Origin: Nitrospiraceae bacterium
GTDB taxonomy: Bacteria; Nitrospirota; Nitrospiria; Nitrospirales; Nitrospiraceae
Length of the DNA stretch: 57,380 nt
Direction: 5' to 3'
Assembly: GCA_035623075.1 (NCBI GenBank)
Contig: DASPUC010000009.1
Span: forward strand, 1-57,380
A model generated the notes under the pieces. It did no database searches, was not told the origin of the DNA, and saw nothing but the letters and a program-made list of their open reading frames with translations. Both the position numbers and the translations under genes were made by a program. The stretch's first letter is position 1; each line of letters opens with the position of its first letter. Below, in pieces: positions 18,618 through 20,840 of the stretch.

Positions 18618-18646
18618 TTGCCACGTTGTAAGGGCTGGTCTAGACT
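18618..18646 (+). promoter_or_regulatory. Predicted promoter of the 18661 gene
   Basis: TTGCCA (18618-18623), 17 bases, TAGACT (18641-18646). The ATG at 18661 is only 15 bases further on, with no ribosome binding site, so the transcript could be nearly leaderless. Confidence 0.5.
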
Positions 18647-18660
18647 GCTCTTCACACCTT

Positions 18661-19974
18661 ATGGCACGCACACGATCAGCCGAACGGTCGCGATCGAAGG
18701 CCGTTGCACTGGAAGACATCGCCCGTGCAGTGGAGCAGTTCCAAGAGCTCCTCGCATTGGTAGAAGATTTCGGACGGGAGGGCTTTCCTTACCGCGACGC
18801 AGCCAGGGCCCGCGCGGAGCTTCGACTCCGTGAATGCATCCGGCGAGCCTTCGGAGACAAGTCTCCGGAATTCCAGACGCATCGCAACTACAAACTCCTT
18901 GTCGGCAACGCACAAGAAACCAAACAGAGCCTGTCCTTCATCAAGGCACTCATGGCGGCGCTGGAAGACAAGAAACTCGAATTGCAGGGGCTCAAGCCTA
19001 TCCCGCCGCCGGAACCACCGGCGCCAACACCGCCTCCAATGCCGGCTCGTCCACCGCAGATGAAGTTGGTTCCGCCGACAACTCCAACAGCCCAGGTCAC
19101 GATTACCCCAGCGGCCCCCGTTGTTCCTCCACCCATGACAGTATCCGTCGCACTGACGACCAATCTTGATATGGCGGCGGCTTCGCAGGCACCACCTCCG
19201 TCAGTACAGAGCGCGCCCGCTCCACCTGCAGCGACGAAGCCTAGTGCACCAGCGCCAACACCGCCGCCTCCTCCCGCTCCCGCGATGAAACCGGCTGTCG
19301 AGGCGAAATCGGCTCCACCTCCCCAACTGCCGGAACCTCCGGCCGTCCAACCGAGTGCCAAGCAAGCCCCTGTGGCACAAACACAGGCAGCGCCTCCTCC
19401 CGTTCAACCGCCAGTCACGCAGCCCAAGGCTGAGGCTCCGCCGGCACCGGCATCCCAACCAGCACCCTCAACCGAAGCCGCTTCGAAACCCACGCCGGCT
19501 GTCTTCCTGAGCAGCCAGGAAGCGCAGGACTTCGTCAAGCACCTCTGCAATCGATTTCACGCTGTCGCGCGTCAACTACGTCTGCGCAAGGAATACCGGG
19601 CCACGCTGGATGTCGAAGACGAATTCGACGCCCAAGATCTACTGCTTGCCATGCTCCGGCTTCAGTTCGATGACGTGGAGACGGATGAATGGACCCCGGA
19701 GTACGCTGAAGGGTCGCCGCGCAAGACGTTCCTCCTCAACCATGGCCGTCTGGCCATCATCGTCAAGAAAACGCGCCCGGGCCTCACGGCAAAAGAACTT
19801 TCCGATCAAATCAAGACTGACGCGATACGCTACAGCGGTCGCAACCGGTGTGCCGCGCTCTTGTGCTTCATCTACGATCCGGAAGGTCGCATCGGGAACC
19901 CCCGCGGCCTCGAAGCCGATCTCACGAGCGTGAGCGATCAATTCACCGTCGACGTCCTCGTCACTCCCAAATGA
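18661..19974 (+). CDS. DpnII/MboI-type PD-(D/E)XK fold protein with apparently lost catalytic acids
   Basis: 437 residues from ATG 18661 (MARTRSAERS). Residues 1-110 are a helical N-terminal domain; residues about 115-300 are a long Pro/Ala/Gln-rich linker; the C-terminal 150 residues match the DpnII/MboI-like restriction-endonuclease fold (LCNRFHAVARQLRLRKEYR, DAQDLLLAMLRLQFDDV, EWTPEYAEGS, LLCFIYDPEGRIGNP). Active members have Asp in the RxDFLL strand and Glu in the IVIEVKK strand; here these read RKTFLL and LAIIVKK (T356 and I367), so nuclease activity is probably lost while the Lys stays. It lies six bases upstream of the RAM-domain gene. A structural or binding role is inferred. Confidence 0.78.
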   Translation: MARTRSAERSRSKAVALEDIARAVEQFQELLALVEDFGREGFPYRDAARARAELRLRECIRRAFGDKSPEFQTHRNYKLLVGNAQETKQSLSFIKALMAALEDKKLELQGLKPIPPPEPPAPTPPPMPARPPQMKLVPPTTPTAQVTITPAAPVVPPPMTVSVALTTNLDMAAASQAPPPSVQSAPAPPAATKPSAPAPTPPPPPAPAMKPAVEAKSAPPPQLPEPPAVQPSAKQAPVAQTQAAPPPVQPPVTQPKAEAPPAPASQPAPSTEAASKPTPAVFLSSQEAQDFVKHLCNRFHAVARQLRLRKEYRATLDVEDEFDAQDLLLAMLRLQFDDVETDEWTPEYAEGSPRKTFLLNHGRLAIIVKKTRPGLTAKELSDQIKTDAIRYSGRNRCAALLCFIYDPEGRIGNPRGLEADLTSVSDQFTVDVLVTPK

Positions 19975-19980
19975 GGTGAT

Positions 19981-20397
19981 ATGAAAAAAGCTAGATCGGC
20001 CAATGCCGTGACTCCGCTTCCGACCTCGGACAAACCCTTGCCTTCATTGACAAGGGTATCGGGGGTCCGCTACGTTGACGGCCAACCGGTGATCTCATCC
20101 ATACCCTGTACCATTCACACGCCGGTCGACGGGGGAATTGTCATGGCGGATCGGGCCTATGTGATGATCAACGTGCAACCAGGCCAAACGAGCGCGGTCG
20201 CGCGAGCCCTCGCCGAGATCAAGCAGATCAAGACCATCGACCCCTGCTGGGGAAAGCCGGATATCATCGTCGTCGTCGAGGTCTCGGACCAGGATGCGCT
20301 CAGCCAATTGGTCTTGAGCAGGATTCACGCCATCCCCGGCGTCACACAGACGGACACTCACCTCGTCTACCGACTCAAGGAGGCCGCGGGCAAGTGA
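19981..20397 (+). CDS. Stand-alone Lrp/AsnC ligand-binding (RAM) domain protein
   Basis: 138 residues with GAGGTG just upstream of the ATG. Residues about 55-135 form the Lrp/AsnC C-terminal RAM domain (AYVMINVQPGQTSAVARALAEI, CWGKPDIIVVVEVSDQDALSQLV, IPGVTQTDTHLVY). No helix-turn-helix is present; the first 50 residues are low-complexity, Pro/Ser-rich. Such stand-alone RAM proteins bind small ligands such as amino acids and can modulate partners. The next gene starts at a GTG overlapping its stop (GTGA), indicating an operon with the nuclease-fold protein and the lipoprotein. Confidence 0.85.
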   Translation: MKKARSANAVTPLPTSDKPLPSLTRVSGVRYVDGQPVISSIPCTIHTPVDGGIVMADRAYVMINVQPGQTSAVARALAEIKQIKTIDPCWGKPDIIVVVEVSDQDALSQLVLSRIHAIPGVTQTDTHLVYRLKEAAGK

Positions 20398-20840
20398 TCC
20401 GGTCATTTCGCCTGGCAGTTCTGATATCCCTCCTCGCCTCCGCCCTGGCCTGCGCCGGTCCAGCGATGCAGCATGAACCGGACGTCATCGACGTCACACT
20501 CCCTATTCCCGCAGATCAGGTCACAACCGCGGTCGTGCAGGTGCTGACGGATGGAGGATACGACGTGGACCGGAAGGATGATCAGACGCTGACGACCGGC
20601 TATCGAGAGGAAATGCCCGGGCCGTGGGATTGGCTATTGCGTTGGCGATTCGGCACGGGACGAAGTCGCGTGGAGGCGAATGTCACACCGGCCACCGAAC
20701 AGTCGGCGAGGCTCCGGCTTTCGGTACAGTACGAAGGCAAAGACGGGTTGTTCACTCGATGGGAGGATTCTCCGACAGCGCTTCCTCAGAGTGCCGAGAA
20801 CCAGTTGCGGCTGATCAAGAACGCGTTGCACATTCTCTAG
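20394..20840 (+). CDS. Putative lipoprotein, unknown function
   Basis: GTG start at 20394 overlapping the previous stop by four bases. 148 residues with a signal ending in a lipobox (ASALAC, Cys at about residue 20), so it is probably lipid-anchored in the envelope. The mature part is a small alpha/beta domain (VIDVTLPIPADQVTTAVVQVLTDGGYDVDRKDDQTLTTGY) that resembles the fold of periplasmic NlpC/BamC-like lipoprotein domains. It ends two bases from the convergent NtrC-type regulator, with no room for a terminator. Confidence 0.72.
   Translation: MIRSFRLAVLISLLASALACAGPAMQHEPDVIDVTLPIPADQVTTAVVQVLTDGGYDVDRKDDQTLTTGYREEMPGPWDWLLRWRFGTGRSRVEANVTPATEQSARLRLSVQYEGKDGLFTRWEDSPTALPQSAENQLRLIKNALHIL

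Follow-up and report, generated by a model that had tools for sequence, protein, structure and literature searches.

Among described systems, bAgaN is an active PD-(D/E)XK DNase that has a long-B Argonaute as its partner (PMC10620215). Inactive domains of related fold are also on record: RecC carries an inactivated nuclease-like domain with a binding role (PMC1185551), and for the inactive REases of BrxHII/RapA-type immune helicases a role as nucleic-acid sensors has been proposed (PMC12839542). Stand-alone RAM proteins assemble into oligomers and hetero-oligomers under ligand control (PMC2995911).

Here, we analysed a stretch of 57,380 nucleotides from a Nitrospiraceae bacterium (contig DASPUC010000009.1, hereafter the window), in which a gene for a pseudo-nuclease occupies positions 18661–19974 of the forward strand, upstream of a RAM gene. 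The product is probably a domesticated pseudo-nuclease of the PF18742/bAgaN clade that would serve as a non-enzymatic binding protein with tethered domains.

Domain architecture and predicted fold

The gene runs from the ATG at 18661 to the stop codon at 19972–19974 and encodes 437 aa, as the preliminary description had it, comprising an N-terminal helical domain, a Pro/Ala linker and an inactivated PF18742 domain. A promoter-like match just upstream (18618–18646) was weak, at about chance level.

PF18742 (DpnII-MboI) was the single Pfam family matched in the protein, at residues 292–437 (E 1.6e-49, 167.8 bits versus a curated cut-off of 27). Pfam, AlphaFold2 and VIA-align assign the catalytically incomplete REase-fold domain to 19516–19971 (+). 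The AlphaFold2 model, for which the input was an alignment of 46 orthologues, reached pLDDT > 90 over most of both domains (helical, 9–108; alpha/beta, 285–435), and the stretch between them was modelled at low confidence. VIA-align matched the C-domain to BamHI (Z 8.0), BstYI (7.8), BglII (7.1) and a CdiA-CT nuclease domain (8.1), with moderate Z values and about 125–130 residues spanned in the three restriction enzymes. Foldseek alone gave no match under E 0.001. The REase fold is therefore claimed on the VIA-align Z of 7–8 together with the Pfam match and the order of helices and strands in the modelled core, which fits the REase (PD-(D/E)XK) fold. This agrees with the well-preserved REase fold reported previously; identity as a DpnII/MboI restriction enzyme was replaced by that of an inactivated homologue of a defence-type nuclease.

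The N-terminal four-helix domain (residues 9–110; 18685–18990, +) was modelled with pLDDT mostly 83–97, with helices at 9–37, 45–64, 69–74 and 84–108, and is conserved among orthologues. Its many helical-bundle matches in VIA were treated as uninformative, and its fold has no clear known relative. No HTH was matched by Pfam in either the pseudo-nuclease or the RAM protein.

Loss of the catalytic acids and continued selection

In site-keeping homologues the active site reads R-x-D-F-L-(L/I)-K ... E-x-K, whereas the window protein has RKTFLL ... AIIVKK. By alignment, Thr356 (codon 19726–19728, +) stands at the catalytic Asp, corresponding to EcbAgaN D298, and Ile367 (19759–19761, +) at the catalytic Glu, corresponding to E309, while Lys369 (19765–19767, +) retains the Lys of ExK, corresponding to K311. 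The positions of T356 and I367 are occupied by D and E in 15/15 aligned site-keeping homologues. Furthermore, the profile of these D-E-K homologues aligns to EcbAgaN (PDB 23wq, E 0.00077) such that D falls on residue 298, E on 309 and K on 311, and the EcbAgaN mutants D298A and E309A-K311A do not cleave DNA (PMC10620215). We trust the register because this anchor is independent and falls on residues with published dead mutants. The Asp-to-Thr and Glu-to-Ile changes proposed in the preliminary description were thus confirmed, and the outcome it had named against itself, an alignment placing the acids elsewhere in the domain, was not what we found. Measured against active PD-(D/E)XK enzymes, the window protein has the Lys of ExK and neither the Asp nor the Glu, and it is predicted to lack cleavage activity.

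The loss is selective. Of 50 columns that are conserved in other homologues, those rarely kept in orthologues included E367 (3%), R340 (6%), K360 (6%) and D356 (13%), and both catalytic acids ranked among the five least kept. Given this rank and the recurrence of the pattern in 134 distinct sequences, the acid loss is more than chance. The basic residues R340 and K360, invariant in active-site-bearing homologues, were lost along with the acids, while H300, R309, R313, D320, D323, D326, F403, Y405, D406 and P407 were fully kept. Judged from these columns, erosion within the domain is confined to the metal-binding part of the site and two basic residues.

An orthologue was found in 127/147 Nitrospiraceae genomes, a near-fixed presence, and almost no PF18742 was found in other families of the same order. 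Several near-complete relatives, many of which have small genomes, lack the gene, so some members of the family do without it. The homologue comparison suggested earlier gave a clear result: both acids together occur in 0/134 distinct orthologous domains (Asp only in 10, Glu only in 2), versus D-E-K in 23/24 other homologues, including mobile, plasmid and phage copies. The count of 134 leaves out one D-E-K sequence (L254), which was rejected as an orthologue with both acids since it is a separate bAgaN-like paralogue in genome G104.

A tree computed after removal of the three site columns separated 79 orthologues from 16 other homologues at 100/99 support. Single-acid copies sit in the early-branching group, and a Glu-only copy (L111) and an Asp-only copy (L106) are sisters at 95/87; with an alignment of only 145 columns, the deep order among early copies is not firm. 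Counting losses as irreversible gave 3 Asp losses (bootstrap 3-3) and 5 Glu losses (bootstraps about 5–7), which indicates repeated inactivation. The simplest account would be that cutting was already dispensable in the common ancestor and that the acids then decayed in parallel, the alternative being re-gain. Living relatives would accordingly represent intermediate stages, with Asp only, Glu only or neither.

Median pairwise dN/dS was 0.116 in the C-domain, 0.093 in the N-domain and 0.49 in the linker. A C-domain value of 0.12 marks purifying selection and so not decay, and it supports retention of the fold under continued selection despite acid loss.

The linker (19003–19515, +) has about 171 residues, near the 180 claimed previously, and consists of 33% Pro and 20% Ala (54% P+A); as described, it joins the REase-fold domain to the helical domain. 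Its median length is 93 residues in single-acid copies and 205 in copies that lost both acids. A conserved linear motif block, LVPP...PPMTVSVALTTNL, lies at 19060–19170 (+), identified by motif counts against shuffles. An SVAxTTN-like motif occurred in 23/64 double-loss orthologues (shuffled mean 0.015) and in 0/11 single-acid copies, and an LVPP-like element in 45/64 and 0/11, respectively, counts that are inflated by relatedness among the copies. A short motif within a loosely conserved tether suggests docking.

Neighbouring genes, active relatives and alternative readings

The pseudo-nuclease gene is followed on the same strand, after a 6-nt gap, by a gene for a stand-alone RAM (Lrp/AsnC ligand-binding) protein of 138 aa (19981–20397, +; PF01037, E 1.6e-14), and then by one for a predicted lipoprotein of 148 aa without a Pfam family (20394–20840, +), the first 4 nt of which overlap the end of the RAM gene. 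This arrangement is as previously described, and its spacing points to co-transcription of the three genes. By Pfam, the genes between 16905 and 22264 comprise PilZ, TPR-like, RAM, lipoprotein and NtrC-type regulator genes, with no Argonaute partner among them. The order pseudo-nuclease/RAM/lipoprotein, facing an NtrC/HK (histidine-kinase)/MalQ block, was kept in most loci examined.

Such synteny favours a reading in which the dead REase domain acts in gene regulation by binding either DNA or a RAM oligomer loaded with a metabolite: the RAM gene lies immediately downstream in most syntenic orthologues, and the oligomeric behaviour of stand-alone RAM proteins cited above would suit such a partner. 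However, the RAM-lipoprotein-NtrC order remains in genomes without the pseudo-nuclease gene, and no RAM gene was present in the stretches fetched around the second copies in genomes G021 and G031 or the copies in G003, G008 and G026. Obligate pairing of the two genes was consequently rejected; functional coupling is plausible, and not obligate. With no HTH by Pfam and with R340 and K360 lost in addition, we regard a RAM-coupled regulator as unlikely. Of the DNA- or ligand-binding regulator proposed in the preliminary description, binding stands as the best remaining reading, favoured by acid loss, fold and selection, whereas a regulatory role tied to the RAM gene is no more than possible.

Two side observations concern this neighbourhood. 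The RAM N-terminus (19981–20142) is extended by about 55 (50–60) residues that include a conserved TIHxP element, an extension found in part of the Nitrospiraceae only. Displaced pseudo-nuclease copies (L108:2512-3222 and L119:1924-3114) lie near formylglycine-generating-enzyme-like genes (PF03781) and not near RAM.

Catalytic residues migrate within the PD-(D/E)XK superfamily, and the protein retains K369 and a conserved acidic helix start (D320-D323-D326), so that it might still be a nuclease whose metal site has been relocated or substituted. However, the replacements are many and mostly non-coordinating at both positions (T, S, A, M, G, V and R for Asp; V, I, L, T, M and A for Glu), and D-E-K homologues have the retained acids to the same extent. 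Acids newly frequent in double-loss copies, at 311 and 431, fall outside the two catalytic strands, and Glu at 431 is already present in single-acid sequences; in the alignment, they do not point to relocation of the site. Retained cleavage is in our judgement very unlikely.

The C-domain was also matched by the PADLOC model Aga_Helical-REase (E 1.1e-23), and by sequence it groups with the abortive-infection DNase bAgaN in one nuclease clade. Conjugative plasmids and viral contigs carry D-E-K homologues, as does a filamentous-phage-like region of a Klebsiella plasmid; in Hydrogenophaga one lies beside a helicase gene. The N-domain of these homologues matches the candidate defence family PDC-S35 (PADLOC). 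Compared with the N-domain of the window protein, it gave hhalign E values of 0.0046 to 0.017 in single comparisons, which were not accepted as sequence proof of shared descent; the predicted helix order is similar, and an FG..S turn lies at the same place. The two N-domains are probably related, with weak support.

Several observations were made on these relatives in their own right. Two Nitrospiraceae genomes carry an extra short-linker D-E-K PF18742 protein (L121:5804-6598 in G029; L122:1418-2212 in G085), one of them with a phage integrase and a deoxyribosyltransferase-like gene nearby; these are probably mobile defence genes. As an accessory gene, a D-E-K PF18742 nuclease occurs on Klebsiella plasmid NZ_CP132684 (L125:5004-5798) and on viral contigs (L168-L169), in a phage-like region with a zot-type protein and replication protein II/X, and is a candidate phage-carried defence. 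In several plasmid records (E. coli IncX1 and other plasmids) a PF18742 protein is labelled 'malate dehydrogenase', which looks like a propagated misannotation. The N-domain of D-E-K PF18742 proteins also matches REase-less proteins of about 300 aa in other Nitrospirota (G162, G168, G171, G151 and G349), which suggests a shared module (compare the PDC-S35 match).

The presence of active relatives on mobile elements, including one close to an integrase in a Nitrospiraceae genome where the dead copy occurs as well, would fit a decoy or dominant-negative protector acting on such nucleases through mixed oligomers. However, mixed oligomers have no support, and the dead copy is near-universal while solo-type D-E-K copies were found in only two genomes of the family here, which makes a protector highly improbable. 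A decaying pseudogene, for which only the loss of catalytic residues speaks, is already contradicted by the selection data, given frames open in nearly all 127 genomes with a match, the dN/dS of 0.12 and invariant non-catalytic residues, and we give it next to no credence.

Proposed function and relation to known systems

We return to the domesticated, non-enzymatic binding protein as the preferred explanation. A PD-(D/E)XK nuclease of the PF18742/bAgaN clade would have become fixed in the Nitrospiraceae ancestor and gained a housekeeping role independent of cleavage, after which the acids decayed in parallel lineages. The REase-fold domain would now persist as a module that binds a ligand or partner, joined by the flexible Pro/Ala tether to the N-terminal helical domain, and in many derived lineages the tether would contribute its short, docking-like motif. 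Binding as the mode of action and flexible tethering are what we infer from these features. The bound partner may be nucleic acid or protein, with about equal likelihood. With R340 and K360 lost, DNA binding in the old cleft is less likely; a check for a net-charge shift unfavourable to DNA binding was negative, the median being −2 in both groups. A functional tie to the RAM protein and lipoprotein may exist. More tentatively, a defence nuclease could have turned into a near-core gene, with the change of function preceding the acid loss, and could now act as a sensor or scaffold in a family-specific pathway.

The literature search found no description of the pseudo-nuclease protein. Binding by inactive nuclease domains is of a known kind; as far as we searched, a near-core pseudo-nuclease with half-inactivated stages is apparently undescribed. 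It offers a natural series from full through half-inactivated to fully inactivated site, in which the order 'new function first, catalysis lost later' is directly testable. It also adds a near-core gene without described function in a family holding many nitrite oxidisers, and a further case of a defence-type nuclease turned cellular component.

Compared with known systems, the window protein shares with bAgaN (EcbAgaN) the C-terminal REase clade, alignable D-ExK positions and the order of N-terminal region then REase. It differs in lacking both acids, in its long Pro/Ala linker and in having no Argonaute among the neighbours tested. The solo D-E-K proteins of PF18742 (about 260 aa; plasmids, phages and mobile islands) are about 45–55% identical over the REase domain. 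However, they have a short linker, keep the site and are mobile, not at a fixed locus. The RAM protein resembles DM1 of Pyrococcus horikoshii (PMC2995911) in having a stand-alone RAM domain, with no HTH matched by Pfam, and differs in the N-terminus, which is extended in part of the Nitrospiraceae family. RecC and the BrxHII/RapA-type proteins likewise have a REase fold without catalytic residues, but there the fold belongs to domains of helicase machines, whereas here it forms part of a separate protein with a partial-loss series in living relatives.
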